From a virus, in the IMG/VR virus record IMGVR_UViG_3300035201_000245, positions 1-64,000 of that record: a stretch of DNA of 64,000 nt. One strand, 5' to 3'. A model generated the notes under the pieces. That model worked only from the letters and a program-made list of their open reading frames with translations, was not told where the DNA came from and made no database searches. Positions 1-48,808 of the stretch are shown here, piece by piece. The position numbers were made by a program, and so were the translations under genes. The number at the start of each line of letters is the position of its first letter. Position 1 is the stretch's first letter.

Positions 1-184
1 CAATAGTTTGTACAACTCCTGGGTTTTGATTACCACCAGGAATAATTCCACGACCTCTATTACTCTGTATTGTTGTTCCCTTTGGTAGGGTCATATAATT
101 CAGACTATCAAAAGTTATATCTCCCTCGAAGACTGTTCCTTCTGTTCCAATTCCTGATACTGTGTCGGTCTTAAGTATTGTCAT
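1..184 (-). CDS. Partial propeller-type adhesin/fibre protein (N-terminus only)
   Basis: The first 61 codons of a leftward gene run off the left edge of the window. The start ATG overlaps the stop of the next gene as TAATG, and a GGAGG ribosome site lies inside the last codons of that gene. The protein begins MTILKTDTVSGIG, like the other members of this array, and reaches the first repeat strand (GRGIIPGGNQ) before the window ends. It is the eighth member of the tandem family; repeat number and C-terminus are not visible. A role as a virion adhesin is inferred from the family context only. Confidence 0.8.
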   Translation of the reverse strand, partial: MTILKTDTVSGIGTEGTVFEGDITFDSLNYMTLPKGTTIQSNRGRGIIPGGNQNPGVVQTI

Positions 185-1230
185 TATAATCCTCCATGAC
201 AATTTGAAAGTCCAGCATTATATGCAATTACAGCTGTTAAATCACCAAATACAACTGATTCAGCATTAGAACCATTAAGAGAGAATTGATGAATACGACT
301 TTGCCTTGATGGTTCTCCACCTATCATATATCCATGAGTTGGTGATGAACAATATGCTGCATTAAGTCCCGCAATCGACAAATCACCAAAATCAATTGTA
401 TTTCCTAATGTTGGGATTATTGTCAATTGAACAGTATCAGTAGCTCCTGGAGTATCATAACCACCAGCCCAAACAGCACGAATGTTATTTGATGTTCCAC
501 CAAGCCAATGCTGTGGATTAATTAAATCTCCAAAATCTAATGAATTTCCTGTTGATGCAATAGTCACAAAATTCATTACATTTGTATCACCCTGATTTGG
601 AATATACTGTGTTGAACCACCTGCCCATATACCACGAGTTCTATTGGATGCAGTTCCACAAAACATTTTTGGAGTAACTACATCTCCAAAATCTTGTGCA
701 TTTCCTGTTGATGCAATCGTTACATAATCAATATGATTAGTAACGGGAAAAGCAGGACCAGAACTTGAATGACCACATGCAGAAAGCATACGAATACTGT
801 TAGAAAATGTTCCAGGATGCATAGTTCCAGAACTCAAATCACCAAAATCAATTGCATTTCCTTGTTGTGCAATAGTTATATAATCAATTGTATTAACATA
901 TGCATTAGCTCCTGGATAACTATAACCACCCCCAAATAATCCACGAGTAAAGGATCCAGATCCACCTTCCCTACAATATCTTGATTGAGTCAAATCACCA
1001 AAATCAGATGCATTACCCGCTGATGCTAAATTAAAATATTCAATTTCAGTAACACTTCTAGATGGTGATGGATGCTGACCGCCACCACTTATACCACGCT
1101 GACTTGTGGTCGTAGACTCTTCAGTGGACATCTCCCACCACTGATCCTGAGCAAAAAACTCTAGTTTCTGCGAGTCAGTATTCAGTCTTATAGCACCCTG
1201 TGGTACTTCTACTGGTGGTTTTAGTGCCAT
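184..1230 (-). CDS. Six-repeat propeller-type adhesin/tail fibre-like protein
   Basis: A 348-residue member of the tandem array. Residues 1-40 carry a short fibre motif (GAIRLN, LEFF, WW). Residues 44-348 hold six repeats, each with a strand like TRGLFGGG, a variable loop, a strand like IDYVTIASTGNA and an FGDL turn. It ends SNCHGGL, which resembles the first strand and could close the ring. A beta-propeller or kelch-like fold is inferred from the repeat pattern, not proven. It probably forms part of the virion surface that meets the host. A late-promoter-like CATAAATA lies just upstream, near 1246-1253. Confidence 0.8.
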   Translation of the reverse strand: MALKPPVEVPQGAIRLNTDSQKLEFFAQDQWWEMSTEESTTTSQRGISGGGQHPSPSRSVTEIEYFNLASAGNASDFGDLTQSRYCREGGSGSFTRGLFGGGYSYPGANAYVNTIDYITIAQQGNAIDFGDLSSGTMHPGTFSNSIRMLSACGHSSSGPAFPVTNHIDYVTIASTGNAQDFGDVVTPKMFCGTASNRTRGIWAGGSTQYIPNQGDTNVMNFVTIASTGNSLDFGDLINPQHWLGGTSNNIRAVWAGGYDTPGATDTVQLTIIPTLGNTIDFGDLSIAGLNAAYCSSPTHGYMIGGEPSRQSRIHQFSLNGSNAESVVFGDLTAVIAYNAGLSNCHGGL

Positions 1231-1251
1231 GTAATTATACCTCTATCATAT

Positions 1252-2952
1252 TTATGAGATGCCACCGTGACTGTCAGAACATCCTGCAGGATTTAATCTT
1301 GCTAAAGTAGAATCTCCAAAATCTGATGCATTACCTATTGTTGCAATGGTTACATAATCTATTGTATTAACATTAGCAGGTGAACCCTCACCACTATTAA
1401 ATATTCCACGAAGAGAATTAGAAGCAGCTCCATGACCTCTTCTTGCAACTGTCAAATTACCAAAATCTGTAGCGTTTCCTGTGCTTGCAATGGTTACATA
1501 ATCTATTACATCTGAATGTGATGGAGTTGTACCACCACTCCATATTCCTCTTGTTGAAGAAGAAAGACTTGCTGTTGAAACTCTTGCTACACTTAAATCA
1601 CCATAATCAGTTCCATTACCTGTTGATGCAATCGTAAAATAATCAATTGTATTCATACCACCATTAGGAGGAGCTCCACCACCAAATAATCCACGAGTAG
1701 GTGATGCACATCCTGCACCAGAATTACGAATTGATTGCAAATTACCAAAATCTGCTGCATTTCCTGTGGTTGCAATAGTAACATAATCTACTGTATCACT
1801 ATTTGCACTTGCTGGTTCTAGTCTTCCTCCTAAAAATAAACCCCTTGTAGAATTAGAAAGACCACCCACAAAATCCCTTACAACACTTAAATCACCAAAA
1901 TCTGTTGCATTAGATGTTGTTGCAATGGTTACATAACTAATAATATTAGTTTTACCTGGTGCTTGACCACCACCAAATATTCCACGAGTTGAAGAAGATC
2001 CTGCACCACCAGCTGTTTGTGCTGTTATTAAATCACCAAAATCTACTGCATTTCCCTCTGATTGTATTTGAACATATTCTATATTATTTACATTACTTGG
2101 AGCATTTCCTAAACCAAATACTGCACGACCTCTATTACTCTCTGCTGTTGTTCCTCCTGGTGGAACCATATATGAGAGAGTATCAAATTTTGTATTGTCT
2201 TCAAATGTTGTTCCGTGATCTTCTCCTATATCTGGAGCAAAACGTGATGCTGATGGTCCTTTATTACTAGTAGCACTTACATATGTTTGAATTGTCTTTC
2301 CTGTTTCTTCCTGTAATACATTTCCAGGTGACTGACAACAAAGAAGAATAGTACTTGAAAGTTTCTCCAATCTTGCCGATGGTACTGTAAATGCTGCAGT
2401 ATAAAGTGCAGTATTACTTATGCGAGCATTACTAACATATCCAACAATACCTCTATTACTAGGAGAATTTCCCTGAGCTCCAACATATGCTTCATTAGAA
2501 TAAGCAGTAGTTAAATCAGAAGATGAACTTCCTGATGCTTCCAATACTCCATCTATAAAAATCTTTACTGCAGATCCAGAACGAGACATCGCAACATGAT
2601 ACCACGTATCATTAGACATGCTAGATGAAGAAGTTATATCCAAATTCCAAGAACCACTACCATAATGCACCCTTCCTTCAAGTTTTCCTTGAGCATCTGC
2701 TAACCATATACCATTCTGACCGTTTTGATTACCAGTCTCCATAATAATATTACCTACAGCATCATCATGTGTTCCCAAACCACTCTTATAATACCAACAT
2801 TCAAGTGTAAAATCTCCTGTTCCCACCGCAAAATCATCGGATGCGATTTTTAAAAATATTGGTTTATTTCTACCAGTCTCAAAATTTACTGATCCATTAA
2901 TAGCATTTGCACCACCTAATCCAGATACTCTATCAGATCGTAATATTCCCAT
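1252..2952 (-). CDS. LamG-domain plus six-repeat adhesin/tail fibre-like protein
   Basis: This 566-residue protein has two parts. Residues about 25-205 look like a laminin-G/concanavalin A-like jelly roll of the kind common in marine phage fibres, with FTLECWYY, WYHVAMSRSG, IFIDGVL and a terminal LLCCQ. Residues about 270-566 hold six RGxFGGG/FGDL repeats and end SDSHGGIS. The jelly roll suggests carbohydrate binding. Its start ATG overlaps the stop of the upstream paralogue (TAATGGG), so the two are probably translationally coupled. It is closely similar in architecture to the gene at 3967-5628. Confidence 0.8.
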   Translation of the reverse strand: MGILRSDRVSGLGGANAINGSVNFETGRNKPIFLKIASDDFAVGTGDFTLECWYYKSGLGTHDDAVGNIIMETGNQNGQNGIWLADAQGKLEGRVHYGSGSWNLDITSSSSMSNDTWYHVAMSRSGSAVKIFIDGVLEASGSSSSDLTTAYSNEAYVGAQGNSPSNRGIVGYVSNARISNTALYTAAFTVPSARLEKLSSTILLCCQSPGNVLQEETGKTIQTYVSATSNKGPSASRFAPDIGEDHGTTFEDNTKFDTLSYMVPPGGTTAESNRGRAVFGLGNAPSNVNNIEYVQIQSEGNAVDFGDLITAQTAGGAGSSSTRGIFGGGQAPGKTNIISYVTIATTSNATDFGDLSVVRDFVGGLSNSTRGLFLGGRLEPASANSDTVDYVTIATTGNAADFGNLQSIRNSGAGCASPTRGLFGGGAPPNGGMNTIDYFTIASTGNGTDYGDLSVARVSTASLSSSTRGIWSGGTTPSHSDVIDYVTIASTGNATDFGNLTVARRGHGAASNSLRGIFNSGEGSPANVNTIDYVTIATIGNASDFGDSTLARLNPAGCSDSHGGIS

Positions 2953-3944
2953 TATCCTAAACCTCCGTGTGCATTAGAAGTACCACTCGTATAATTTGTG
3001 TTAGTATTGGTTAAATCACCAAAATCATATGCATCTCCTGAAGTTAATAAAGAAGTATATTCCATTGTATTAATAGTGCCTGGAGATCCACCAGAGACTA
3101 TTCCTCTAATAGGACTAGAAACTGCGACTCCACCAGTATGAGTAGTATCACAATCACCAAAAAGTATTCCATTTCCTTTTGATACAAGTTCTGTTTTAGT
3201 TATAGTTTTAATATGACTACCATCATCTCCTGCATAAGTAACTGATCTAGTTGAATTAGAACAAGCACCAAATTCTCTAACAGTAATTGGTAAATCACCA
3301 AAATCTTGTGTATTTCCTGTTGTTGCAATAGTTACAAATTGAATTATATTAATTTTTGCAGGTACACCACCACCATGTAAGAATCCACGAGTGGGAGTGG
3401 CAGCTGCAGCTCCTCCTGCCTGGTTTCCATTATAACAATTACCAAAGTCTATTGCATTTCCTGTGGATGCAATGGTTATATATTGACACACATCTGAAGA
3501 AGGGTCTGTTCCCATTGAAACACCTCTAATTTGATTAGAGCACATTCCATTATTAAGAGCTTTATCAGAAAGTAAATTACCAAAATCTGTTGCGTTTCCT
3601 TGGGCAGAATGTGTCCAATAATCAATCGTGTCTACCCTAGATCCATTATGACCACCCGCAAGTACTCCTCTAGTTCTTGATGCACATCCTCCTGCAGAGT
3701 TTCTTGCCTGTGTCAAATCTCCAAAATCAGATGCATTTCCTATTGTAGGTATTGTATACCAATCTATTACATTACTATAAGGACCTGGAGATCCACCTGC
3801 TGTAAAACCACGAGCACCACCATTTAAATCTGGACTAAATGTATTAATCTGCATCCACACGTCACCATTAAAATACTCCAACTTCTGAGAATCAGAGTTG
3901 AATCGGATTGCTCCTAATGGTATCTCCTTTGGTGGTAAACTCAT
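2952..3944 (-). CDS. Six-repeat propeller-type adhesin/tail fibre-like protein
   Basis: A 330-residue paralogue with the short fibre motif at the N-terminus (IPLGAIRFNSDSQKLEYF...W) followed directly by six RG..GG/FGDL repeats and the terminal AHGGLG. The third repeat is degenerate (IRGVSMGTDP). The C-terminal codons for HGGLG contain a GGAGG sequence that serves as ribosome site for the next gene. There is no LamG domain. Function as a host-contact virion protein is inferred. Confidence 0.8.
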   Translation of the reverse strand: MSLPPKEIPLGAIRFNSDSQKLEYFNGDVWMQINTFSPDLNGGARGFTAGGSPGPYSNVIDWYTIPTIGNASDFGDLTQARNSAGGCASRTRGVLAGGHNGSRVDTIDYWTHSAQGNATDFGNLLSDKALNNGMCSNQIRGVSMGTDPSSDVCQYITIASTGNAIDFGNCYNGNQAGGAAAATPTRGFLHGGGVPAKINIIQFVTIATTGNTQDFGDLPITVREFGACSNSTRSVTYAGDDGSHIKTITKTELVSKGNGILFGDCDTTHTGGVAVSSPIRGIVSGGSPGTINTMEYTSLLTSGDAYDFGDLTNTNTNYTSGTSNAHGGLG

Positions 3945-3966
3945 AATAGTATTCTCCTATTCATAT

Positions 3967-5628
3967 TTATTGCGTAAGACCACCACCACTATCAGAACAT
4001 CCACCAGGACCACTATTGACACCATCAGAATAGGTATCACCAAAATCATTTGCATTTCCTGTAGTTGCTATGTTTACATATTCAATTGTATTGGTCCTAG
4101 AAGGAGAAGATGGAGTCCAACCACCATAAACACCTCCACGAACACAATTACTAAATCGACCAGGCCAACCTTTTATTGCACCTAAATCACCAAAATCAGT
4201 TGTATTACCTGTTGTTGCAATCGTTATATATTCAATAATATTCTTATCAGCACCATCATATCCTGCAGCATAACATCCACGAGTATTACTAGACCAGGCT
4301 GTTAGTCCGTGACGAGCATCAACAATATCACCAAAATCAGTAGCATTACCTGTAGATGCAATCGTTATATACTCCATTGTATTGGTATCATTACTAGCAG
4401 TACCACCAGCTTGTACACCACGAGTAGGAGATGAACACGCTGATGTATTACGAGTTGCAGCAACCAAATCACCAAAATCTGTTGTGTTTGCTGTTGTTGC
4501 AAATGTTAAATATTGAATTGTATTTAAATTAGTAGGAGTTCTACCACCCATCATTATTCCACGAGTATCACTACCACAAGAACCTGATCCACTATTGACC
4601 TGTAAAGAATCACCAAAATCTGTTGCATTACCTGTTGTTGTAAATGTTATATAATCTAAAGTATTAACACGAGTTGGAGTTGCTCCACCACAAAATACTC
4701 CACGAGTTGCTGATCCACAAGCTGAAAGTTCTACTCTTGCTGCTGTTAAACTACCAAAACTAACTGCATTTCCTGTTGATTGAATTGTTATATAATCTAC
4801 CCTACTTAAAGCACTTGGGTTTCCACCACCACCAAATACTGCACGACCTCTACCTCTCTGTGTTGTATCTCCTGTTGGAAAATACATATGTCCTGGAGTA
4901 TTAATCTTAACATCTCCATTAAATACTACTCCCTCATCTATTCCTACTGGTGGAACTTTTTTATGTTGAATAGGTTGTCCTGCAGCAAGTTTTCCATAAC
5001 CAGTAATAGTCTTTCCTGTTGCTTCTTGTGTTGGATCATTAGAATCCTGACAACAAAGAAGAACTGTTCCATCAATTACTGTTAGTTTTTCTGTTGGTGG
5101 TGTGAATGCTGCTGTATAAAGTGCAGTTCCTTTAATTACACGTAAATTGGAAATATACCCTTTAAATGCACCTTCAGTAGCCGACCTTGCTCCAACAATA
5201 AAAGCACCAGAACTTGCAACTGAACCAGAGTTAGTTGTTGAATCAACTTCCACTCCATTTACAAATGCTTTTAATGTTGTTCCTGATCTAGCAAGTGCAA
5301 TATGAGTCCAAACATTAAGACCTGGTTTATATGTTGATCTTTCATCAGTTCCAGAAACTAATGAACCAGTTAAACCAGTTCCATCAGATGTAATATACCA
5401 TCCTAATTGTCCTCCATTAGAATCAAATACCCTTTGACTATATCCACCTTCCGCATGACTATAATCTGTTGTATATATCCAGCATTCTACAGTAAAAGCA
5501 CCTGTTCCCATCGCAAAATCTGTATTAGCTGCAAGACTTAAATAATCATCTCCATTAAAAATTACTGATCCATCAATAGCATTTCTTCCGCCAGTTCCAC
5601 ATACATTGTTTGCTCTTAAATTTGCCAT
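3967..5628 (-). CDS. LamG-domain plus six-repeat adhesin/tail fibre-like protein
   Basis: A 553-residue protein with the same order as the 1252-2952 gene: a LamG-like jelly roll at about residues 28-200 (FTVECWIY, WTHIALARSGTT, AFVNGVEV, LLCCQDS) followed by six propeller-type repeats and an unusual end, SDSGGGLTQ, in which the conserved HGG is altered. A CAATAAATA late-promoter-like box sits close to its 3' end, ahead of the 2952-3944 gene. The paired LamG architectures suggest duplication within the array. Confidence 0.8.
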   Translation of the reverse strand: MANLRANNVCGTGGRNAIDGSVIFNGDDYLSLAANTDFAMGTGAFTVECWIYTTDYSHAEGGYSQRVFDSNGGQLGWYITSDGTGLTGSLVSGTDERSTYKPGLNVWTHIALARSGTTLKAFVNGVEVDSTTNSGSVASSGAFIVGARSATEGAFKGYISNLRVIKGTALYTAAFTPPTEKLTVIDGTVLLCCQDSNDPTQEATGKTITGYGKLAAGQPIQHKKVPPVGIDEGVVFNGDVKINTPGHMYFPTGDTTQRGRGRAVFGGGGNPSALSRVDYITIQSTGNAVSFGSLTAARVELSACGSATRGVFCGGATPTRVNTLDYITFTTTGNATDFGDSLQVNSGSGSCGSDTRGIMMGGRTPTNLNTIQYLTFATTANTTDFGDLVAATRNTSACSSPTRGVQAGGTASNDTNTMEYITIASTGNATDFGDIVDARHGLTAWSSNTRGCYAAGYDGADKNIIEYITIATTGNTTDFGDLGAIKGWPGRFSNCVRGGVYGGWTPSSPSRTNTIEYVNIATTGNANDFGDTYSDGVNSGPGGCSDSGGGLTQ

Positions 5629-5629
5629 C

Positions 5630-6988
5630 TTAGAAACCTCCTAGTCCACCGTGGGAATCAGAACAAGCACCAATTCTAAATCTAGGTTCACTTAAATCAC
5701 CAAAGTCTACCGCATTTCCTGTTGATGCAATATCTACATAGTCAATAGTATTTCTCCTAACAGGTGCTTCATAACCACCACCAAAACATGCTCTAGTTTG
5801 AGATGCTACAGCTCCTGCACCATTTCTTGCTAGTGTTAAATCACCAAAAACTATTGCATTACCTTCAGATGCAATAGTTACATAATCCATAAGAACTACT
5901 GAAACAGTAGGTTCAGATCCACCACCAAATACTCCTCTAACTGAATTAGATGCTCCATTAACATTCCACCTTCCATGAGACAAATCACCAAACCTTGTTG
6001 CATTTCCTTTTGATGCAATTTCATAAGATTGAATTATATAATCCGCATAAGGTGCTGCAGGACTACCAAAACCACCACCCATCACACCACGAGTAGGTGA
6101 TGAAAGTGATCCATGTGCATATACCATTTGATAAGGATCACCAAAATCTTTTGCATTTCCTATTGTTGCTATCTCCACATAATCAATTACAGAATTCCAA
6201 TAAGGTGATGGAGAAGATTTATAACCACCATTAAACATTCCACGAGTAGATGATGAACAATTAGAATTAAATGAACAATTATCACCCGTTGATATATCAC
6301 CAAAATCACTTCCAAGACCACCTGAAGCAAGAGTATTATATTCTATCGAATTTAAATATCCTGGATTATTACCATATCCAAATATACCACGAGTCGAACT
6401 TGAACATGCACCATGATTAGTTCTTTGAACAAGTAATCTACCAAAATCTACTGCATTACCTGTTGATGCTATATCAATATAATCCATAACATCACATCCA
6501 TTAGTATCATATATGGATCCACCACCTGAAAATACTCCACGACCCCTATTACCCATATCAACATAAGAATTTACTGTTCTCCATTCCACACCAGTATAAA
6601 ATTCAAGTGATCCTAAATCCTCATTAAATCTTGTTGTTCCTACTGATGGTTTATCTTCACTAATACCAGGAAGAGTGAAACTATCTGTTACTGTTAAATT
6701 CTCTGGACCACTTGTAAATGTTGCTCCTGCTGATACTGTTGTACTACCTTCAATAATAATCTCACCAGATATTGAACCCTGTTCAGAACCTTCAAGACCA
6801 GATATTGATGCCTTAGTATCTACAAACCCATCAAAGGTTGTAAGAGTAGATACACCAACTGCTTTTGCATTAGATGAATGAATATTTCCAAGTGCCTGAA
6901 GAGTATTGGTAGGATTATCAGTTCCTATACCAACTAGTTCGTTTTCTAATTCAAATGCGGTTGAAAAACCTATGCGTACTTTTGCCAT
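5630..6988 (-). CDS. Six-repeat adhesin with trimeric-fibre N-terminus
   Basis: A 452-residue paralogue. Residues 1-110 resemble the shaft of cyanophage fibres (VGIGTDNPTNTL, a series of short beta strands), followed by TRFNEDLGSLEFYTG..W at about 118-136 and six RGxFGGG/FGDL repeats from about residue 148. It ends SDSHGGLGGF. The codons for GLGGF contain GGAGG, used as the ribosome site for the next gene after a 1-base gap. The shaft may attach the repeat head to the virion. Confidence 0.8.
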   Translation of the reverse strand: MAKVRIGFSTAFELENELVGIGTDNPTNTLQALGNIHSSNAKAVGVSTLTTFDGFVDTKASISGLEGSEQGSISGEIIIEGSTTVSAGATFTSGPENLTVTDSFTLPGISEDKPSVGTTRFNEDLGSLEFYTGVEWRTVNSYVDMGNRGRGVFSGGGSIYDTNGCDVMDYIDIASTGNAVDFGRLLVQRTNHGACSSSTRGIFGYGNNPGYLNSIEYNTLASGGLGSDFGDISTGDNCSFNSNCSSSTRGMFNGGYKSSPSPYWNSVIDYVEIATIGNAKDFGDPYQMVYAHGSLSSPTRGVMGGGFGSPAAPYADYIIQSYEIASKGNATRFGDLSHGRWNVNGASNSVRGVFGGGSEPTVSVVLMDYVTIASEGNAIVFGDLTLARNGAGAVASQTRACFGGGYEAPVRRNTIDYVDIASTGNAVDFGDLSEPRFRIGACSDSHGGLGGF

Positions 6989-6989
6989 C

Positions 6990-8345
6990 TTAGAAACCTC
7001 CTAGTCCACCATGACAATCAGAGATACTTCCCATATGATCTCTTGCCTCAGTTAAATCACCAAAATCTAATGCATCTCCTGACGATGCAATAGTTACATA
7101 ATCAATAGTATTTAAGTGTGCATTACTTGGTTCAGTATCACCTCCACCAAATAACACTCTCGTATTAGTTGCAGCTGCTCCTGCACGATAATATGAGGCT
7201 CTATTCTGAGATAAATCCCCAAAGTATTGAGCAACTCCCCCACTAGCCATAACAAATGAAAACAAACCTGTTATATTAGGTTGATCATTCGTTGCCAGAT
7301 ACATTACTCCCTTAACAGAATTAGAATCTGCAGCAGAAGAATTTCCTGCATCACATTCTCCAAAATCAATTGCAGCTCCACCACTTCCATAATGAATTCT
7401 TTGGATTGTTCGTTGATTATTCGATCCCGCTGTAATATGTGCATGTGTTGGATTATTAAATGATTGACCACTATGTACATAGTCCAACGATCCAAAACTA
7501 ACTGCATTTCCTGCTGTAGACATTTCTACTTTTGCGATATCTGTATTATTATTCCATCCAGCACAAAATAAACCCCTTGTAGAATTTGATGCTCCTATTA
7601 TTCCCCAATGTCCACCAGCAGTAAGATCACCAAAATCTTCTCCATCACCCTGCGATGCAAGTGTTATATAATTCATATCAGTCTGAGTAGAAGTTCCACC
7701 CGAATCTTTATATCCACCACCAAATATTCCTCTTGTAGAACTAGAAACTCCATCCAAAGCAGCATACTTATTACCAGAACTAGTCAGTTTACCAAAGTCT
7801 TTTGCATTCCCTAGTGATGAACCATTCACATAATCAATAGTTGTAGATATTTCATACCCACCACCCCAAATACAACGAGTACTAGTTGTTGTATGGTCTA
7901 CCTGTCTCCAGAAATTACCATCCCAATATTCAATTGTTCTAAAATCTTTATTATAATATAATGCTCCTGGTTGTGGTGCTGATGGTCTATCATTTGTTCT
8001 ACCAATCGGAGGATTAAATGTATTACTTACTTTCAGACTCTTAATACTTCCTTGACCAGTTGTTGCACCAGTTCCTACAGACATTGTAAGACCAGATCCT
8101 ACAACTACCTCACCTGATAGAGTTCCACTCTCTCCACTATCAATAACTACATCACCCGTATATGATGTATTTTTATTTAAGAAACCACTTGAAGATGTAA
8201 GAGTTGCAATACCTGTTACAACTACATCCCCACCCCTTGTTCCACCAATAACCTCTAGCTTCTCACTTGGTGTGGAAGTTCCTATACCAACCTTTTGACC
8301 CTTAAGGGATAAATCGTCTAAGTAACCGAAGCGTTTAGTAGCCAT
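6990..8345 (-). CDS. Six-repeat adhesin with trimeric-fibre N-terminus
   Basis: A 451-residue paralogue of the 5630-6988 gene, with shaft-like strands at residues 1-115 (VGIGTSTPSEKLEV), the ALYYNKDFRTIEYWDG..W motif, then six repeats. Repeats 4 and 5 are diverged (THAHITAGSN, VKGVMYLATN), so loops and strands differ strongly from the neighbours while the repeat number stays at six. It ends SDCHGGLGGF, again with the ribosome site for the next gene inside these codons. Confidence 0.8.
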   Translation of the reverse strand: MATKRFGYLDDLSLKGQKVGIGTSTPSEKLEVIGGTRGGDVVVTGIATLTSSSGFLNKNTSYTGDVVIDSGESGTLSGEVVVGSGLTMSVGTGATTGQGSIKSLKVSNTFNPPIGRTNDRPSAPQPGALYYNKDFRTIEYWDGNFWRQVDHTTTSTRCIWGGGYEISTTIDYVNGSSLGNAKDFGKLTSSGNKYAALDGVSSSTRGIFGGGYKDSGGTSTQTDMNYITLASQGDGEDFGDLTAGGHWGIIGASNSTRGLFCAGWNNNTDIAKVEMSTAGNAVSFGSLDYVHSGQSFNNPTHAHITAGSNNQRTIQRIHYGSGGAAIDFGECDAGNSSAADSNSVKGVMYLATNDQPNITGLFSFVMASGGVAQYFGDLSQNRASYYRAGAAATNTRVLFGGGDTEPSNAHLNTIDYVTIASSGDALDFGDLTEARDHMGSISDCHGGLGGF

Positions 8346-8346
8346 A

Positions 8347-9693
8347 TCAATAACCTCCTAGTCCGCCGTGGGAATTAGAAACACCAGAAGCACCACGACG
8401 ACCAAGCCCTAAATCACCAAAATCCATTGCATCTCCTAAAGTACTAAAGTTTATATACTCTATTAAATTCAATGCTGTTGCTCCTCCAGACCATACTCCT
8501 CTTGTTTCATTAGAAACACCACCATTAATTATGTAACGAGATGACATTGCATCACCAAAATCTTGTGCATTTCCATCCGATGCAATAGTTATATAATCTA
8601 ATGTAGTGACCGTTCCAGGAGATCCATGTGCTTCTCCACAAACAAAAACACCTCTCGTACTATTAGAACATCCAGCAAGACCTTTACGAGCAACAGATAA
8701 ATCACCAAATTTAATTGAGTTACCTTTTGCTGCAATAGTAATCACATCAATAAGACTATCAGGACTGCTACCACCAGCAAATATTCCACGAGTTGGTGAA
8801 TTAACTAATCCACTATGAAGATCCTTACGGACTTTTGTTAAATCCCCAAAATCAACTGCATTTCCTATAGTATTAATCTCAATATATTCTATTATATTAA
8901 CATTAGTACCAGGTTGCTCACCACCACCCCAGACTCCTCTAGTTGAACTAGAAGTTGATCCTAACATTCCACGAACTGCTGATAAATTACCAAAATCTAT
9001 TGCATTTCCTGCTGATTGAATGGTAAAATATTCCATTGTATCAGTCCTAGCAGGTGAACCTTCTCCACCACCCGTAACTCCTCTTACAGAACTAGCAACT
9101 CCACGTAAAAAACCACGAGCAACTGTCAAATCACCAAAAAATTGTGCGTTTCCTAAAGAAGATATAGTAATATAATCTTGAAAAGTATAATAAGTTGGAG
9201 TAGCACCACCACCCCATACTCCACGACCACTTCCACCAGAATTATTTACAGTAAATTGTCTCCAATCTACTCCATCATAAAATTCAAGTGTATTTAACTC
9301 TGTATTAAACCTAACAGTTCCTTCTACTGGTACTTCTGGTCTATCTTCTACACCACCAGTTGGAGGAGAAAAATGAGTTCCTATACTTACACTCTCAACA
9401 GTTCCAACAGTAACAGTAGCACCTGTTGATACTGTAAATGTACTATTTAATCCTACAACAATATCTCCTATCGTACTGTGCTCTGAACTAAGACTTGTAT
9501 CTCTATTAATATTTAAATCATCTGCAGCAAAACCAGCATATCTCTGGAAAGTAGATACACCTGTTACATCTAAATTCGCTGTCTTTATAGTTCCTTCTAC
9601 CTTAAGATTTCCAAGGCCACTAGACTCCGTACCAATGCCGACAGCACCGTCTTTTAAGTTAAAAGATCCTATTCCGACGCGGTAAGTTGCCAT
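8347..9693 (-). CDS. Six-repeat adhesin with trimeric-fibre N-terminus
   Basis: A 448-residue paralogue, first gene of the array in transcription order. N-terminal shaft strands (VGIGSFNLKDGAVGIGTE) are followed by GTVRFNTELNTLEFYDG..W at about residues 125-145 and six well conserved repeats (VRGVTGGG, TRGVWGGG and so on), ending SNSHGGLGGY. Only about 10 bases separate it from the upstream fibre gene, so it is likely in the same late transcript. Confidence 0.8.
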   Translation of the reverse strand: MATYRVGIGSFNLKDGAVGIGTESSGLGNLKVEGTIKTANLDVTGVSTFQRYAGFAADDLNINRDTSLSSEHSTIGDIVVGLNSTFTVSTGATVTVGTVESVSIGTHFSPPTGGVEDRPEVPVEGTVRFNTELNTLEFYDGVDWRQFTVNNSGGSGRGVWGGGATPTYYTFQDYITISSLGNAQFFGDLTVARGFLRGVASSVRGVTGGGEGSPARTDTMEYFTIQSAGNAIDFGNLSAVRGMLGSTSSSTRGVWGGGEQPGTNVNIIEYIEINTIGNAVDFGDLTKVRKDLHSGLVNSPTRGIFAGGSSPDSLIDVITIAAKGNSIKFGDLSVARKGLAGCSNSTRGVFVCGEAHGSPGTVTTLDYITIASDGNAQDFGDAMSSRYIINGGVSNETRGVWSGGATALNLIEYINFSTLGDAMDFGDLGLGRRGASGVSNSHGGLGGY

Positions 9694-9704: not shown

Positions 9705-10634
9705 TTATACTGTCACGGGGTTTGGAAGTACCGTAACCGTCGCAGACGAGGCACTACCCATATTCACATAAACTTTTAGATTTGATCCATCTATACCAGC
9801 AGTAAATGTTCCAAGCATAGATCCTGTTGCAATTGCCGATTCTTCTATAATTGTAGCAGTCGTTCCATCATGTATTACCAAATACCGACCTACTTGATAT
9901 GCACTACCTTGAGTAATCTGCATTATCATATATGCAGAACGATAAGTTGCGTGTGCTATTGTATATACAGCAGTTGCACTTGTTGATGAAACTGCAACAT
10001 CTGTTTCTGCAGCTCCTCCACCACCACCTATCTCACCCCATTCGTCAGTATATCCCTCAAACTTTCCGTCTGTAGTATTATATCTAAAGTCACCTGCAGC
10101 TGGAGAACCAGGTCTTTGTCCTGTCGTACCTTTTGTTACACCAATTGCACCAGTACCACCAAAATCTGCACCGTCAGTTGTTGTACTTACTCTAGCAGCA
10201 TTATCATAATATACAACACCAGATCCATCTGTAGTAAATACAAATCCACTTTCAGTACCTGCTGCATTTTGAATTGCAACTGCATCGCCTCTCAAATGAA
10301 GAGCACCAGTTCCAGCATCAGCAATGATACTATTTGATGCGTCATGCCATATTTTTAAATCTGAACCAACACCCGCAATTATCTGCTCTCCATCCCCTAA
10401 TTTTAATCCACCAACTGTTGCTATACCACTAATATTCCAACCATCGGTATATATTTCCTTACACGTTACAATACCACAAGCTAATTTACCTGGGTTATTA
10501 GCACTTACAGGATCACTAACAACTGTAGTACCAATACCAACATTTTTATCGAAGGTAAAACCATCACCCGCAAAACTCAGGGTGTTAATACCTGCTCTTC
10601 CTTTTATGGTATCTACTCTAATTTCAGCAGCCAT
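9705..10634 (-). CDS. Tail fibre-like virion protein
   Basis: A 309-residue protein of the cyanophage fibre type. Residues 1-60 have VDTIKGRAGINTLSF and VGIGTTVV segments; the middle contains LKIWHDASNSII and GALHLRGD, also found in the neighbouring 752-residue protein. Residues about 175-205 carry the GDFRYNTTDGKFEGYTDEW motif. The last 100 residues are a distinct beta-rich domain rich in small residues, possibly a tip or trimerisation domain. The gene is preceded by one of three near-identical promoter and ribosome-site leaders. Confidence 0.7.
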   Translation of the reverse strand: MAAEIRVDTIKGRAGINTLSFAGDGFTFDKNVGIGTTVVSDPVSANNPGKLACGIVTCKEIYTDGWNISGIATVGGLKLGDGEQIIAGVGSDLKIWHDASNSIIADAGTGALHLRGDAVAIQNAAGTESGFVFTTDGSGVVYYDNAARVSTTTDGADFGGTGAIGVTKGTTGQRPGSPAAGDFRYNTTDGKFEGYTDEWGEIGGGGGAAETDVAVSSTSATAVYTIAHATYRSAYMIMQITQGSAYQVGRYLVIHDGTTATIIEESAIATGSMLGTFTAGIDGSNLKVYVNMGSASSATVTVLPNPVTV

Positions 10635-10671: not shown

Positions 10672-12930
10672 TTAAACCACCACATAATTACCATCAATAG
10701 TCAAGACACCGTTAATAGTGACTGGACCTGCCATCATACCATTAAAATTAGTTCCAATGTAATGATTACCATTCAGTGCATTATCAACCATAAGCATACC
10801 ATTACCAATATAAAGTCCTTGGAATGAATTACCAATACCTTGGACATCTGGATCGTTAAGTGCCGTCGTATTAATACCAACCGATTTACTGGTTGATATA
10901 CCAATAGACCCTTCTGGTGTCCATGTTCCTGCAGCACCTGCATTACCACCTCCACCTTGGAAGCAAAGTGTAGCAATACCAAGATTACCATCATAATATG
11001 CTGTGGTAAATCCAGCACCTTTAAATTCAAGATAGGTTACACCATAACCAACAGGATGAATACCTGCTGAACCATCACCAGTTGTTCCAATACCAATGGT
11101 AACACCAGTTAGATTTGCACCATCACCATAGTATGTAATAATACCTGCATGAGCACCAACTGTTGCACCACCACCAACATAACCTGCACCAGTAACTAAT
11201 AGTCCTGATACACCACCATTTCCACTACCAAAGGTACTAACACCAGATATGTTGAGGTTTCTACCAGATACTTCATCATAAGTGATATCACCAGTAACAT
11301 CAAGGTTTCCAAGTACAACAAGATCACTACCTACAGTTGCAATACCAGAAATAGTTACATTACCATTAGAAAATATAGTAGCAGCAGAACCAATTATTAT
11401 ACTTGAACCAGTACCAACAACAATTCCACCATTAGCAGTTACAATTCCTGCAGCAGCAATATTACCGTTTGCAGAAGCTGTAACACCAGAACCAACGGAT
11501 ATCTTACCACTTACAGTCTCATCTCCAGTAACCGCAAGTGTCGATCCATCAAATGTTAAGTTACCACTATCTTCCAGTTCTCCAGAAGTTCCAGCAATAA
11601 CAACTCTATTATCTGTTAGATCAGAAATCTTTGCAGTATCAGCAACTAATGCATCAACAGTTGCAGTACCATCAAGGAATAAATCACCCCACTCACTTGT
11701 AGCAGCACCAATATTTCTAGTACCGTCTACATCTGGTATTAAATTACTACCAATAGATGTAAAGGTAGATACTCCACTGATGTTTAATCTATTACTTGTC
11801 GTTACTCCACTAACATTAACACCTTGCGGAGTAGTCTGGAAAACGTTTCCATTATCATAATAAAGAGATACAGCTCCATTCTCTGCAAAGGTTGCTTGAG
11901 TTTCATTACCTGCTGCATTTCTTACCTGTAAACTATTACTATCGACATATAAATTCCCAGTTCCTGTGGTATCCTGTATATAACTATGTGATCCATCATG
12001 CCATACAATTAAGTCAGATTGAGCTCCGAATGTTAACTTAGCACTATCTTGGAATGTTGATACACCAGATACTACATTAATTCTATCAGAGAATGTAGTG
12101 ATACCAGTTATATTGAGGCCACCACTTGTAGACTCTAGCTTCTTCGAATTATCATAGTAGACTTCTACTGAGCCAGTATCATTAGCAATAATATAATTCT
12201 CACTACTTGCACTTTGTAATTTTATATCTGCAGAACCTCTAATAATAAGGTCTCCAGTTCCTACATCTTGAATGTAGGAATTCGAACCATCATGATGAAT
12301 TTTTAAATCTGAGCCATCTCCCATAAAGATAGCTGCATTATCTCTAAAGAATGCAGTAGTACCAAATCCAACAGTTGCACCTACAGCAACATAGTTAGAT
12401 GATAATCCTGCCTGACCATCAATCTTAGAAATACCAAACTGAACAGGAGCACTAAAAGTAGATACACCTGATCTAAGATCTACATCAATTCCACCAAGGA
12501 ATGATGCAATACCTACAAATGTAGAAATTCCAGCAACTTTTAAGTCACTGAAACTGTTTGGACCAACCCTTATTGCTTCTTCAATTGTTGCAGTCGTTGT
12601 TGCGTCAAGTGATGCAATACCACTCAAACGCATTCCTCTATCTACTATCTCTGTCGTACCTATCGCAAGTGATTGAGCACTAACTATTCCGCTAACACTT
12701 ACATCCGAACTAAACCCAGAATATCCGCTAACTAATAAATCTTTAACTGTACCAACACCTATTATATTCAGGTCGGTTGCGCCTATTCCACCTCTCGCGC
12801 CACCAACATGGAGGGTATACCCAGGAACCGTAGTACCTATACCAACTTTGTTTGTCGTCGAATCACCTACGATCAGGTTAGTGTTTACCTGAACACCATT
12901 CTTAATGACAAAATTCTTATTAATTGCCAT
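10672..12930 (-). CDS. Long tail fibre-like virion protein (GVSTF-repeat shaft)
   Basis: A 752-residue protein made of many short repeats with the consensus ISGVSTF/IAGVGT and several copies of SDLxIxHDGSxSYIQDxGTG, typical of trimeric beta-structured fibres in cyanomyoviruses. The last 70 residues (IGNGMLMVDNALNGNHYI...GPVTINGVLTI) resemble the end of the small protein at 26705-27217, so both may carry the same trimerisation or capping module. It is preceded by leader copy 2. Attachment partner in the tail cannot be told from sequence. Confidence 0.75.
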   Translation of the reverse strand: MAINKNFVIKNGVQVNTNLIVGDSTTNKVGIGTTVPGYTLHVGGARGGIGATDLNIIGVGTVKDLLVSGYSGFSSDVSVSGIVSAQSLAIGTTEIVDRGMRLSGIASLDATTTATIEEAIRVGPNSFSDLKVAGISTFVGIASFLGGIDVDLRSGVSTFSAPVQFGISKIDGQAGLSSNYVAVGATVGFGTTAFFRDNAAIFMGDGSDLKIHHDGSNSYIQDVGTGDLIIRGSADIKLQSASSENYIIANDTGSVEVYYDNSKKLESTSGGLNITGITTFSDRINVVSGVSTFQDSAKLTFGAQSDLIVWHDGSHSYIQDTTGTGNLYVDSNSLQVRNAAGNETQATFAENGAVSLYYDNGNVFQTTPQGVNVSGVTTSNRLNISGVSTFTSIGSNLIPDVDGTRNIGAATSEWGDLFLDGTATVDALVADTAKISDLTDNRVVIAGTSGELEDSGNLTFDGSTLAVTGDETVSGKISVGSGVTASANGNIAAAGIVTANGGIVVGTGSSIIIGSAATIFSNGNVTISGIATVGSDLVVLGNLDVTGDITYDEVSGRNLNISGVSTFGSGNGGVSGLLVTGAGYVGGGATVGAHAGIITYYGDGANLTGVTIGIGTTGDGSAGIHPVGYGVTYLEFKGAGFTTAYYDGNLGIATLCFQGGGGNAGAAGTWTPEGSIGISTSKSVGINTTALNDPDVQGIGNSFQGLYIGNGMLMVDNALNGNHYIGTNFNGMMAGPVTINGVLTIDGNYVVV

Positions 12931-12974: not shown

Positions 12975-15900
12975 TTAGTGTAAATCAACCCAGGCTGCTC
13001 CAGTAAATCCTTGGAACTTACTTGTAGCAGTATTGAACATCATTGCACCTGCAGTTGTACCTAAACCAACAACGCTGCTGACCTTAGGAAGAATCATAAA
13101 GGTGTTAATTCCAACACCTTCCGCAAGATCTAATGTTGCTCTAGGTGATGCAGTTCCAACTCCAGCAGAAGAAACTCCAATAATAGTATTAATAGATGCA
13201 GTAACAGCAGTTACAATTCCTGAGAATGTTGCATTACCGTTAGAATTAATAGTTGCACCAGTTCCAACGCTAAGTCTATCAACACTAGCATAATCATAAT
13301 TTACATCAGTGCTTATGTTACCAAATCTCTTCCAGGCTTTATCGGTTGTGTAAACCCATCCAAGATACTTACCACCTTGTGGATTATCATTGAAAGTAAT
13401 ATCACCAGGAGTTGCTGAATCAGTTGGAGTAGCAATTCCAACGGTTAACTTACGTGATACTGATGCATCTCCTTGTAAGAATAGAGATGATGCTTCAAGT
13501 CCCTTAGTAGAAGATGAAGTTACCTTATTACTAAAGACAACTGGACCTTTAAACTCAGAGATTGACTTATTCTGATCTCCACCATCAATCTTAATAGACT
13601 GTGTGAACTCACCTTCAGTTGCATTAACAATATTGACTCCCTTCTTAACAGAGATGTCTTCACCTGTTACCGTTCTGATTGGAGTATTAACAACTTCTTC
13701 CTTACCAGTAACAGAATTTAACTTCTTATTACCAGAGTAGAAGATACCCTTATCATTCATACCAGTGAAGTAGTTAATACCACCATTCTTTCTGAGAGAT
13801 TGACCTAACAACTCTTCAGTATCTGATATTTGACGGGTTTGTTTCTCTGGAAGTGCAGTTGAGTAGTTACCTGGACCAAATCCAACGTACTCAAATGTAT
13901 GACCTGCAACTCTATTAATTGAATGTCTTCTTAATTCAACAGGCAGTGGTCTAATTCTACGAACAACTGCATTTGCTGCGTGTGTTGCTGCTTTTGTTCC
14001 AAGACAAGCACGGAAAACATAAAGTGGGTTTGTTACAGGATTAGCAGGAGTAGTCTTAATTCTGACTATCTCATCATCAATCACGAAGTAATCACCCATC
14101 TGTAATCCAATTTCATCTTGCTCACCAGCAGTTAAATTCATTTCTGTGGTGGTCTTAGTCATTGCAGCATTCAAGTTTGTATGAAGATTATTCAAATCTC
14201 CACTAATTGGTGTCATTCTTCCGTTTAGACTCTCATCTTCTAATGTTGGAGTACCATTTGCACAAGCAAAACCTGTACGTTCAACAAACATAGAAGAACC
14301 AACAGATATTGTACCTGCACTAACTGTCTTACCAGCACCAACATTTAACTCAAATTCATTCCAAGTATTACTCTTGGTTACAACATAATCTCCAACAAAG
14401 TAATCTTTAGCAGAAGGTCCAGTACTTGCACCATCTGTTCTAACACCAACAGTAGATATAGCAACCTTAACCTTAGCATTTACACTTAATCCGTGAGCAG
14501 TTGATACTCCAACTGTTGCAATACCTAAACTTGTATCATAAGTGAATGTACTAATACCAAGAGCATCTCCAGTATTATATAAGTATGCATTAGAAGTTAC
14601 AACAGAACCTATACCTGCAGTTGTTACACCTGTTACTGGAGTATTACCAACAACAGTGAAACTTCTTGCTGCACCTACATGAACATCAAGAATACGATAA
14701 AGATTGTTATATTGTCCGTAAGTTTCTGATGATACACCAGCAATTCTAACAATATTACCTATATTGTTGTAAATCTTACTGACGGTAATCTTAGCAGCAC
14801 TGTATCCTGTACCGACACTACTTGCGTGAGTTGTAATACCCGCAACATATAATGTGTTACCAATACCATAAGCACTACCACCATTCATGATGAGTAGTTC
14901 AGTAATACCACCACTATTCTTATCTACAGTAACCTTCGCAGTAGCAAAGTGTCCAGTTGTTGTACCAATACCAGCACTAGTCCAAACAAAATGCTGCTCG
15001 CTATTTAATAACTGAGCATTATAGTAGACTTCTTCAGTACCACCACCTGTACCATATCCACCACCACTACTTGCAATACTGACTTGAGTAACAGGATTTA
15101 ATCCATGATCAGCATCAGTGTAAATGGTATGAACCTTAGAATTAGGGAAGTTAAATGATCCTACTGGAATCTTAACTGGTTGTGAAGCAATTCCAGTTGT
15201 ACTGGAAGCTGGGGCCATATGTGTCTCAGTAGAACCAACACTTGTTATAATCTGTGTTATACCAACACCGACTTTAACATCACTCATAAAGTTATCAAGT
15301 GCTTCTCTAGTAAGACTATCTCTAACATCACTTACAGTAACATCTCCAATTGGATCCGAAACAGCATGAGTTGTTGTTGCTTCAGGATCAAGAACAGGGT
15401 TATCACGATTTACTTGAGGATAAAGATACTTAACTGGTTGAATAAATTTCTCTCCAGTAAATGGTGAAACAGAAGGAGCATTTGATGACTTTAATGCAGT
15501 TACATAGTAAATACCATCTTGCTTACCACTAACATACTGCTGAACTTCTTCAGTATCCTGAACAACATATGAATTATTATAATTCTTTCTCTTAAAGTAT
15601 GGGAGATCAATATCTCTTGTTGTAGTATCGTTTGTAAATGAACCACCATCAGTTGACATTCCAACAAAGAATTCCCTTGCACTTGTAATACCAGTAATAG
15701 CAAATGTACCATTAAATCCAGAATTACCAGCACCAGTAGTATTCACACTACTCTTAACATTAGCAATCTCAACAAGAGAACCAACAGATAAGTTATGTGG
15801 TTGCTCTGTTAAATATCTTGCTCTATCAACACTAGTTGATGAATCCCAGTTTGCATGTGCAATTAAATTAAAGTTTCTTTGCTGATTGACATTAGTTAAT

Positions 15901-18386
15901 GAACCAGTACCAAAGTAAGTCTGAACTTCTGCAGTTGTTGATCCAATAGAAGTATTAGACTCCTGAATAACATATCCACTTGTAGGAGGTCTTGCAACAG
16001 AACCACCAGTGGATGAAGGAATAATATATCTTAAACGATACGTAGTATCTTCTGCTTTTCTATCATCAGTCTTTCTCTTAATATAAGTTCTAGGAGAAGC
16101 ATTTCCTAATCCCGCAGTTCCTTGATTTAGGAAATATGGATGAATTGCATCTTTTCCTATAGCAGTATCAATACCAACCTTAACATACCATTGAGAAGCA
16201 GTTGTATCATACTGAATAGGATGTCCAATATCACCAGAATCCTTATCAGATACTCTACTTACAATTTTTAGAGGTCCACCAAGATTGTTAATCGTTAATG
16301 CTGTTGTATTCTCTGCATCATTTAAAGTCTTAGCAAGTTTTAAACCAACATTAGTTGATATTCCTGTAGTAATAGCATAATATATTCTATTTGGATCGAT
16401 TCCATCAGGCAATCTACCGTCAGAACTTATAACCCTAACAGTTTCTCCATTCTCAAAAGTATGTGCTGCTGTTAATTCAAACTGATTACTTGTAATACTA
16501 TTGATACCAGTAGCACTTCTATTAACTTTAAAACTCTTCTCTCCACTCGTTTGTGAATTAGGCATCACAATACGAGAACTAAACTCCGAACTAACACCTG
16601 CAGAAATAGGAATTAATACATTAAGTCTATCAGATGCTGCTGCACCTACTCTATAACCATCAACAACACTCTCTGGTTTAACAGATGAATTTGTTTGTCC
16701 CTTAAGATACAAACGTTCACAAGTTGTACCAGAACCAACTATCTTAGAAATATCAAGAGCAGTAAATTCTACAGTCTTTTCAGTAGACTGGAATCCTTTT
16801 GGAGGAATAACGTGTGTAATATATCCTAAATCGTCCTGTGAATACGCATCCTTTTTATATCCTGCAGAAACTAATGCCTTTGCACCAAAGTTTGAATTGG
16901 AGTTGGTGATAGACATATCACCACCAGTATCAGTAACAAAGTGTTCTGCATAACCTATAGCAAATGCTGATGCTGCTTGAATTGTTGCATCATTAATTGC
17001 TTTAATATGATAGTTATTATATGCAGGTTTAAAGACTGCTCTCGAATCTGTAACTAAATTCTCATTTCCAGTAACAGTACCATCATCATATGCACCTGTA
17101 GTTGCATTATACTTTAAGAATGCATTATTATCCTTCTGCAATCCAATACCTGTGTACTGGGCAACAACCATTGATTTAAATCCAGTTGCTTTGTTACCAT
17201 CTGCAAGCAAACCACACATACCATAAACTGATCTCAATGAGCAGTTAAAGATATATGGAGAAGCAGAGGAAACAGTATCAACAGTAAGAGCTGCTACACC
17301 ACCAGATGTACCTGGAAGTGCATCAGAAGGAGCATTTTGTACAGAATACTTAAATTGAGTAGAATTTACCTTCTCTGTAATAACAAATCGACCATTATAT
17401 GAAGTATCAGTTAATCCACTAATATGAACTGCAGTATCTACATCTGCACCAGTCAGAGCAGAAGTAGTAGTAACTGTAATAACTGTAGATGAGGTTGTAC
17501 CATCACCCGATTTAATGCTACTAATACCTACAGAACCTGCAGTAGGACCAACAATACGATATTCATCAACTTTAGGTTGAATATCTAATCCAGTTGATGG
17601 ATAATCTGGTTCTATTTCACGACCAGATGTAACACCATAAACTAAACCAACCTTCTCATAATACATGTCAAGGTCAGTTCTGGTATTAGAACCATAAGTT
17701 TGGTTATTATCATTAATACTTACCTTGTTTACACCATCAGCATATTCAAATGCAGTTAACTTATGGTGTGAAAAATCAGGTGCATATGCATTATTAGTAT
17801 AATCTAGATATACCTGTCCGTTTGGATCTCCATCAAATATAGAGAATTGCCAGAAATAACATCCACCAGTTACACGGAATATTGCGGATTTTTCAACATT
17901 ATCATTAGTTGGATTAGGAACATACTTAGGACGGATCTTGGTCTTTCTAAGATCCATACCAACAAGTGAAGTACCACGAGGTACAATTACACCACCATAA
18001 ACACTATTCAGTTTATAAAGTGAATTATTAACATTAGATAACTCAAAATTAGTATTTAAATCCCATGCACTAAAATCAGAAGAGGTTGAACCAAATCTAT
18101 CTCTAAAATTTCCAGATCCATCAGGAATCCAACCAGGCCTATTATCTACTACGTGCTCACCAGGATACAACAAGATTGTGGTTTGACCAAAACGATCATT
18201 ATTCAAACCACGTTGATATGAAAACCTTGATGCCTCTACGAGTGCTCTTTGAATCGTCTTAAATGGACGAGTTAATGAATTCCCTTTATTCTCAACACTA
18301 TCCGTTGCATCCAAATCATTTGGACTGACATACAGGATATTCCCGCGAACATTTTTGAGAAAATTCTCTAATCTGGAAAGACCCAT
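12975..18386 (-). CDS. Giant virion structural protein (1803 aa)
   Basis: The longest gene of the window. The N-terminus (LSRLENFLKNVRGNILYVSPND...PFKTIQRALVEASRFSY) looks like the start of a right-handed beta-helix of the kind seen in large cyanophage structural proteins. The middle, about residues 280-1500, is made of repeated beta-sandwich-like segments with HxLxxGxxV and NGTFxITG motifs. The C-terminus has fibre-shaft strands and ends with GAMMFNTATSKFQGFTG..W, the motif shared with the adhesins. It is probably a tail fibre, collar or baseplate-attached structural protein; which one is not decidable here. Confidence 0.75.
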   Translation of the reverse strand: MGLSRLENFLKNVRGNILYVSPNDLDATDSVENKGNSLTRPFKTIQRALVEASRFSYQRGLNNDRFGQTTILLYPGEHVVDNRPGWIPDGSGNFRDRFGSTSSDFSAWDLNTNFELSNVNNSLYKLNSVYGGVIVPRGTSLVGMDLRKTKIRPKYVPNPTNDNVEKSAIFRVTGGCYFWQFSIFDGDPNGQVYLDYTNNAYAPDFSHHKLTAFEYADGVNKVSINDNNQTYGSNTRTDLDMYYEKVGLVYGVTSGREIEPDYPSTGLDIQPKVDEYRIVGPTAGSVGISSIKSGDGTTSSTVITVTTTSALTGADVDTAVHISGLTDTSYNGRFVITEKVNSTQFKYSVQNAPSDALPGTSGGVAALTVDTVSSASPYIFNCSLRSVYGMCGLLADGNKATGFKSMVVAQYTGIGLQKDNNAFLKYNATTGAYDDGTVTGNENLVTDSRAVFKPAYNNYHIKAINDATIQAASAFAIGYAEHFVTDTGGDMSITNSNSNFGAKALVSAGYKKDAYSQDDLGYITHVIPPKGFQSTEKTVEFTALDISKIVGSGTTCERLYLKGQTNSSVKPESVVDGYRVGAAASDRLNVLIPISAGVSSEFSSRIVMPNSQTSGEKSFKVNRSATGINSITSNQFELTAAHTFENGETVRVISSDGRLPDGIDPNRIYYAITTGISTNVGLKLAKTLNDAENTTALTINNLGGPLKIVSRVSDKDSGDIGHPIQYDTTASQWYVKVGIDTAIGKDAIHPYFLNQGTAGLGNASPRTYIKRKTDDRKAEDTTYRLRYIIPSSTGGSVARPPTSGYVIQESNTSIGSTTAEVQTYFGTGSLTNVNQQRNFNLIAHANWDSSTSVDRARYLTEQPHNLSVGSLVEIANVKSSVNTTGAGNSGFNGTFAITGITSAREFFVGMSTDGGSFTNDTTTRDIDLPYFKRKNYNNSYVVQDTEEVQQYVSGKQDGIYYVTALKSSNAPSVSPFTGEKFIQPVKYLYPQVNRDNPVLDPEATTTHAVSDPIGDVTVSDVRDSLTREALDNFMSDVKVGVGITQIITSVGSTETHMAPASSTTGIASQPVKIPVGSFNFPNSKVHTIYTDADHGLNPVTQVSIASSGGGYGTGGGTEEVYYNAQLLNSEQHFVWTSAGIGTTTGHFATAKVTVDKNSGGITELLIMNGGSAYGIGNTLYVAGITTHASSVGTGYSAAKITVSKIYNNIGNIVRIAGVSSETYGQYNNLYRILDVHVGAARSFTVVGNTPVTGVTTAGIGSVVTSNAYLYNTGDALGISTFTYDTSLGIATVGVSTAHGLSVNAKVKVAISTVGVRTDGASTGPSAKDYFVGDYVVTKSNTWNEFELNVGAGKTVSAGTISVGSSMFVERTGFACANGTPTLEDESLNGRMTPISGDLNNLHTNLNAAMTKTTTEMNLTAGEQDEIGLQMGDYFVIDDEIVRIKTTPANPVTNPLYVFRACLGTKAATHAANAVVRRIRPLPVELRRHSINRVAGHTFEYVGFGPGNYSTALPEKQTRQISDTEELLGQSLRKNGGINYFTGMNDKGIFYSGNKKLNSVTGKEEVVNTPIRTVTGEDISVKKGVNIVNATEGEFTQSIKIDGGDQNKSISEFKGPVVFSNKVTSSSTKGLEASSLFLQGDASVSRKLTVGIATPTDSATPGDITFNDNPQGGKYLGWVYTTDKAWKRFGNISTDVNYDYASVDRLSVGTGATINSNGNATFSGIVTAVTASINTIIGVSSAGVGTASPRATLDLAEGVGINTFMILPKVSSVVGLGTTAGAMMFNTATSKFQGFTGAAWVDLH

Positions 18387-48021: not shown

Positions 48022-48028
48022 TATTTAG
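48022..48028 (-). promoter_or_regulatory. Late-promoter-like CTAAATA
   Basis: CTAAATAAAAC on the minus strand overlaps the thyX stop region and lies just before the ATG at 48001. It resembles the cyanophage form of the T4 late box. Confidence 0.5.
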
Positions 48029-48660: not shown

Positions 48661-48808
48661 CGTCTTCGAAAACCTCATCATAATCTGGTGATGGTGAAGA
48701 GAAATCAGAACCCGTATATGCATCTGGATCAGAATAAACTTCCGATTCCAGTTCATCTACAATCTCTTTAAGAGCTCTAACTAAAACTTTTAGTTTTGCT
48801 TTGTTCAT
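48650..48808 (-). CDS. Small acidic protein upstream of thyX
   Basis: A 52-residue protein: a basic helix (MNKAKLKVLVRALKEIVDELESEV) followed by an acidic, Ser-rich tail (SDPDAYTGSDFSSPSPDYDEVFEDDDS). The start ATG is just downstream of a strong promoter with a leader of only about 12 bases. Its stop overlaps thyX, so it probably affects thyX translation by coupling. No family recognised. Confidence 0.6.
   Translation of the reverse strand: MNKAKLKVLVRALKEIVDELESEVYSDPDAYTGSDFSSPSPDYDEVFEDDDS

Follow-up and report, generated by a model that had tools for sequence, protein, structure and literature searches.

The stretch analysed here (the window) covers bases 1 to 64,000 of the viral record IMGVR_UViG_3300035201_000245 of IMG/VR, which is 66,106 bases long; window base 1 is also record base 1. 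Its left end holds an array of adhesin genes on the minus strand, consisting of seven complete open reading frames (ORFs; g1 to g7) and the 5' part of an eighth, with intergenic gaps of -1 to 22 bases. The subject of this report is the fixed number of repeats in the encoded proteins, which is best explained, most likely, by a closed six-bladed kelch-like propeller. The genes are as follows.

1 to 184, minus strand: eighth adhesin gene, 5' part (61 codons); short N-terminus, then the first strand RGRGIIPGGN; cut by the contig start
184 to 1230, minus strand: adhesin g1, 348 aa; short N-terminal motif and predicted propeller (~184-1101) with six units found by hidden Markov model (HMM)
1252 to 2952, minus strand: adhesin g2, 566 aa; LamG (~2404-2838; PF13385, E 1e-17), linker and predicted six-unit propeller (~1252-2130)
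2952 to 3944, minus strand: adhesin g3, 330 aa; short N-terminal motif and predicted propeller (~2952-3815) with six units
3967 to 5628, minus strand: adhesin g4, 553 aa; LamG (~5131-5556; PF13385, E 1.2e-18), linker and predicted six-unit propeller (~3967-4848)
5630 to 6988, minus strand: adhesin g5, 452 aa; shaft N-terminus and predicted propeller (~5630-6544) with six units
6990 to 8345, minus strand: adhesin g6, 451 aa; shaft N-terminus and predicted propeller (~6990-7883) with six units, three of them strongly diverged (weakest 5.9 bits)
8347 to 9693, minus strand: adhesin g7, 448 aa; shaft N-terminus (148 aa) and predicted six-unit propeller (~8347-9228)

An earlier note on this DNA had counted eight tandem adhesin genes, and the count holds: seven are complete and the eighth is real but truncated by the start of the record. 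Its ATG at 184 overlaps the g1 stop and its reading frame leaves the record at base 1. Because the window starts at that base, further adhesin genes may follow beyond this end of the record. Three types of N-terminus occur: g2 and g4 have LamG, g5 to g7 a fibre-type shaft, and g1 and g3 no more than a short motif. The C-termini, from g1 to g7, are SNCHGGL, SDSHGGIS, SNAHGGLG, SDSGGGLTQ, SDSHGGLGGF, SDCHGGLGGF and SNSHGGLGGY. All seven fit the ending S(D/N)xHGG or a variant, as had been noted (SDSGGG in g4 being one such variant).

Two models were used to count the repeats, a unit HMM derived from the window adhesins and a second one for which 1160 units served as training set. By both, each of the seven complete proteins has exactly six adjacent units of ~48 aa. 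The six TRGxFGGG strands per protein that the earlier note described therefore stand as six units at the profile level, but many units are not literally TRGxFGGG. Its remark that the count is kept in spite of divergence is borne out by g6 (6990-8345), which retains the unit spacing although three units are barely recognisable.

The count was then extended to relatives, 153 viral loci at first and 313 finally, which were picked by similarity to the window propellers, so that very different architectures may escape it. Among 194 distinct complete ORFs of the family, 143 have six units, 43 have 12, four have 18, one was scored as 13 and three are odd. The 13 (L110, 833-2740) is a gap-filling artefact; a 76-residue gap holds one unit and a linker, and inspection gives 12. 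With this correction the counts are 6 (143 ORFs), 12 (44) and 18 (4), which accounts for 191 of the 194, and no other count occurs among these 191 intact ORFs. Of the odd three, one is a 117-aa remnant and the other two are the pieces (~2.2 and 3.8 units) into which a frameshift has broken one gene. Both are signs of decay inside tandem arrays, the remnant being the one-unit gene L135:10978-11331 and the split adhesin gene L144:4846-6062.

The spacing of the units follows the same rule. The longest inter-unit gap comes after unit 6 in 43 of 43 twelve-unit proteins and after units 6 and 12 in four of four eighteen-unit proteins, and the linkers at these borders often hold an internal HGG-type end. 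Varying repeat numbers in relatives had been named beforehand as an outcome that would speak against a propeller. The numbers do vary, but solely in multiples of six and with linkers at the six-unit borders. When units are compared between proteins, those with the same number are hardly more similar (0.46-0.51) than those with different numbers (0.44-0.50), which means that there is almost no blade-by-blade orthology. With so little signal in the comparison of unit i with unit i, no blade-specific function is claimed. A rule of six that survives the mixing of units, and that changes only in whole sixes, points to closure of a six-bladed ring. It is what a closed ring, duplicated only whole, would predict.

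A sister family gives a second view of the rule. The window propeller profile reaches proteins of Synechococcus phage S-SKS1 at E 2.9e-25. Of 14 members of the S-SKS1 sister family, 13 match Pfam Kelch_KLHDC2/KLHL20 (best E 1.1e-27) and 11 match Kelch_3. Its complete ORFs (n = 93) have 12 units in 69 cases, 18 in 11 and 24 in three. Among its twelve-unit proteins the longest gap follows unit 6 in 59 of 67, and the 24-unit proteins have theirs after units 6, 12 and 18. Three related genes of this family, L225:2540-5188, L226:1858-4362 and L227:1564-4362, contain 17, 16 and 18 near-identical units, respectively. In S-SKS1 itself an unannotated stretch (L159:4318-5103, which is HQ633071.1 202317-203102) still codes for propeller-like units. 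The S-SKS1 record ends inside a repeat gene and its ends are doubtful there; when the gene is joined across them for a unit count, the frames do not match up.

What if the proteins formed an open, solenoid-like array, with six no more than a frozen accident of ancestry? The proteins are homologous, hence their counts are not independent, and to this extent common descent would serve. However, length changes solely by six, linkers lie solely at six-unit borders, sixes recur in a sister family of different sequence, and same-numbered units have almost no extra similarity. An open array is therefore extremely unlikely.

The anatomy of the unit points to a kelch-like fold. In the Keap1 kelch domain a glycine pair ends strand B, strand C has a tyrosine and a C-terminal strand A completes blade I (PMC4668279). 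Column statistics from an alignment of 1184 units show two of these features directly. Columns 7-8, which end strand B, are Gly in 88% and 93% of units, and column 20 in strand C is Tyr in 83% and Phe in 11%. The kelch tryptophan of strand D is absent, column 32 being Phe in 99%. The number of units per domain, six, is that of Keap1. As for register, the units begin at strand B and the last one finishes with strand A, an order read from sequence which fits a C-terminal strand completing blade I. The proposal that a terminal strand completes the first blade agrees with this register as far as strand A is concerned; HGG itself comes just past strand A, where the next TRG would be. The closed six-bladed propeller proposed at the outset is strongly supported by sequence, through the six units, their quantisation, the positions of the linkers and the kelch-like anatomy.

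Variation in the units is concentrated on what would be one face. High entropy and frequent indels are confined to columns 9-15 (the B-C loop) and 37-42 (the D-A loop), and the C-D turn (STGNAT) and the A-B turn (SNSTR) are near invariant. The corresponding BC and DA loops of the Keap1 kelch propeller lie on the same side and make up its binding face (PMC4668279), and it is for this reason that the two variable loops are read as one variable face. This is the pattern expected of a binding disc. Could the face instead be catalytic? Many six-bladed propellers are carbohydrate-active enzymes and kelch repeats are present in galactose oxidase, so the heads might be glycan lyases, hydrolases or galactose-oxidase-type oxidases that degrade polysaccharide of the host or of particles. 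An active site needs conserved polar residues in particular blades. However, across the 143 proteins with six units, conservation of a loop position never rises above 50% in any blade, and the best positions (P11 and R39) are alike in all blades. This absence of blade-specific loop conservation, together with the scant extra likeness of same-numbered units, speaks against a common active site and makes the enzyme reading very unlikely.

The next line of evidence concerns whole heads. Adhesins are present at the corresponding site in the syntenic relatives L250, L262, L254, L245 and L236, and L250 keeps the order g7-g6-g5 as judged by shaft similarity. Comparison of g7 with its counterpart in L262 (16130-17497) gives 84% identity over the 148-residue shaft and 49% over the propeller, and the fall between the two is abrupt, near residue 150. 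The background for random pairs of propellers is 47% (5-95%: 37-57%). In other pairs N-termini of ~105 residues are 83-95% identical and propellers 44-62%. A control pair without a swap (L116/L098) has 88% identity in the N-terminus and 83% in the propeller. Third positions at identical residues tell the same story, matching at 0.66-0.84 in most N-termini vs. 0.36-0.62 in propellers. For g7 and L262 the values are 0.75 in the shaft and 0.62 in the propeller, the latter about that of window paralogs (0.64). Since identity and third-position agreement both drop at the shaft-head border, the propellers appear to be older in ancestry than the shafts that carry them, most simply through recombination at the border.

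Perhaps the heads diverged by point changes in place, driven by strong positive selection or by a diversity-generating retroelement (DGR). Such a process typically targets loops that vary on one face. However, the changes reach synonymous third positions and the entire propeller, and they set in with a step at the border. A reverse transcriptase (RVT_1, the mark of a DGR) was not found in the source record, which is a genome fragment. In addition, near-identical contigs from different samples (L001, L002 and L003; 99.9%) have almost no variation, and thus give no sign of very fast hypermutation in place. Diversification in place is unlikely, and replacement of heads on standing shafts is preferred.

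The neighbourhood of the array links it to the tail. The array is placed directly after several tail fibre genes on the same strand.

9705 to 10634, minus strand: fibre-like gene upstream of the array, without propeller units; PHROG tail fibre matches
10672 to 12930, minus strand: tail-fibre-like gene, upstream; phrog_8745 tail fiber, E 4e-31
12975 to 18386, minus strand: large tail fibre protein of the T4-like cyanophage type; matches phrog_529 (tail fiber) at E 0

The last of these is conserved and was the handle by which syntenic relatives (L234-L313) were found. A short motif like GxIRFNxDxxxLExFxGxxW occurs before the propellers in the N-termini of g1 and g3 and also at the C-terminus of the 12975-18386 protein; perhaps phage fibres share it as a collar or adaptor. 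As for the source, the window has psbA, gp32, thyX and a SAICAR synthase gene in addition to T4-like tail genes, and its psbA is closest to cyanophage psbA genes (~81%). Judged by psbA and its affinity, gp32 and the tail genes, the record is a fragment of a T4-like cyanophage. The genes thyX, SAICAR synthase (purC) and psbA, at 48025-48756, 53583-54344 and 55376-56509, are auxiliary genes typical of cyanomyoviruses.

Outside the window the propeller also occurs on another kind of tail protein. A tail-tip protein of Desulfobacter vibrioformis (L157:450-4232; Phage-tail_3, PF13550) ends in six propeller units, by sequence the same head on a different carrier. This bears on the question of whether the adhesins instead sit on the capsid or the tail sheath as decoration or Hoc-like proteins, which would bind particles or mucus-like polymers and not an infection receptor. 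LamG, fibronectin type III and beta-propellers are generic adhesion modules, and there are many copies per genome. However, the genes come straight after tail fibre genes, and the units in L157 terminate a tail-tip protein. A decorative role is distinctly unlikely.

Besides the seven complete adhesin copies and one partial in the window, there are 14 in each of two other genomes (G001 and G003) and 9-10 in another (G004). Among 50,697 records of isolate phages the sole relative is the distant one in S-SKS1. The family also turns up in contigs from bins of Pirellulales and Porticoccaceae and in an Epulopiscium single-cell assembly; all three may be phage contigs or contamination. The one binned with Porticoccaceae (L156:782-7786), probably a phage contig, has six tandem adhesin genes of six units each, with ends ATSGAAS or similar and without HGG. 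Fibronectin type III takes the place of LamG or shaft in 26 of 62 relatives.

Taken together, the array probably encodes tail-associated adhesins with closed six-bladed kelch-like heads, each with one variable binding face, and with heads exchanged on standing shafts. Each adhesin would have its attachment or shaft module at the N-terminus, in the form of a shaft, LamG or a short motif, and at the C-terminus a propeller of six B-C-D-A units whose last strand A closes blade 1. The face of the disc that carries the B-C and D-A loops would bind, probably, cyanobacterial surface glycans or proteins. One phage would carry many such heads on its virion simultaneously. Lineages would shift specificity when a whole propeller is replaced by recombination at the shaft-head border, the shaft keeping its slot in the tail. 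Receptor binding by the heads is likely, and the broad receptor-binding set suggested earlier is plausible in view of how the proteins are built, which genes they lie beside, the variability of one face and the apparent replacement of heads. A wider proposal is that this is a large unnamed kelch-like head family, nearly absent from isolates, which serves as a swappable repertoire of 7-14 different propellers, borne at the same time on conserved shafts, with specificity altered as marine phages exchange whole heads. This is put forward tentatively, as somewhat less than an even chance.

Several observations weigh against these interpretations. The window proteins have no Pfam Kelch match, a Pfam search of their propeller parts gave no match of any kind, and only one of 62 relatives matches Pfam Kelch, weakly (E 0.084). 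Sequence searches of the PDB with a window protein, the profile and an S-SKS1 relative returned nothing credible. In the sister family 10 of 93 ORFs have counts that are not multiples of six. Most are fragments, but L226 has 16 and L225 has 17, through either assembly collapse or true blade loss. Finally, third positions are not identical in the shafts either, and deep divergence could explain some of the head differences. Given the Phe in place of Trp and the failure against Pfam Kelch models, the window family is kelch-like and not a member of kelch.

Why does this matter? Little is known of host recognition by T4-like cyanophages, whose fibre tips mostly bear the annotation hypothetical. 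With quantisation in sixes, the fold of many metagenomic proteins missed by Pfam models would become readable from sequence, and an annotation rule can be offered: count units in sixes. The module in which binding would be sought is a precise one, the propeller with its B-C/D-A loop face. If true, head replacement on conserved shafts is a concrete route to host-range change in the ocean, altering what the virus sticks to.

How does the family compare with known systems? With Keap1-type kelch domains (PMC4668279) it shares units of ~47 aa, the glycine pair ending strand B, the Tyr in C, six units, a register that fits a C-terminal strand A closing blade I, and variable B-C and D-A loops, which would lie on one face. 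It differs in having Phe (FGD) for Trp in strand D and in lacking a Pfam Kelch match, and Keap1 is a ubiquitin-ligase adaptor whereas this is a putative phage fibre head. In the S-SKS1-like kelch proteins of cyanophages (SWZG_00001 and its relatives L160-L233) the units are homologous, and six-unit modules, a linker after unit 6 and modules in tandem recur. However, they match Pfam Kelch, usually have two to four modules per protein and units far more alike, and have a different unit consensus, YGYFGGG...NTIDRLDFSNET. In P-HM2 and P-HM1, which like the window source are T4-like cyanophages, a Kelch-repeat protein is reportedly present in the former and missing in the latter (PMC3037559), making its gene one of the few that differ between near-identical phages. 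P-HM2 has a single annotated Kelch gene vs. at least eight in tandem here, and the likeness is one of annotation. In the literature searched, kelch fibre heads of cyanophages come up in passing only. Two PHROG families matched by the window propellers, phrog_19111 and phrog_26444, are without function or fold assignment.

Beta-propellers have been proposed as the receptor-binding domains of phage fibre or baseplate proteins in phi11 Gp45, PRD1 P2 and phiKZ gp131C (PMC4901313), as they are here, and the location of the window genes with tail genes is a feature common to phage propeller receptor-binding proteins. Blade numbers differ, with five in phi11, five in PRD1 and seven in phiKZ vs. six units in the window family. 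The phi11 propeller closes by an N-terminal strand, and none of the three is described as kelch-like or as a tandem gene array (PMC4901313). Propeller heads in phages are therefore already known; what this family adds is quantisation in sixes, the arrangement of its genes in tandem and the proposed replacement of heads on conserved shafts.

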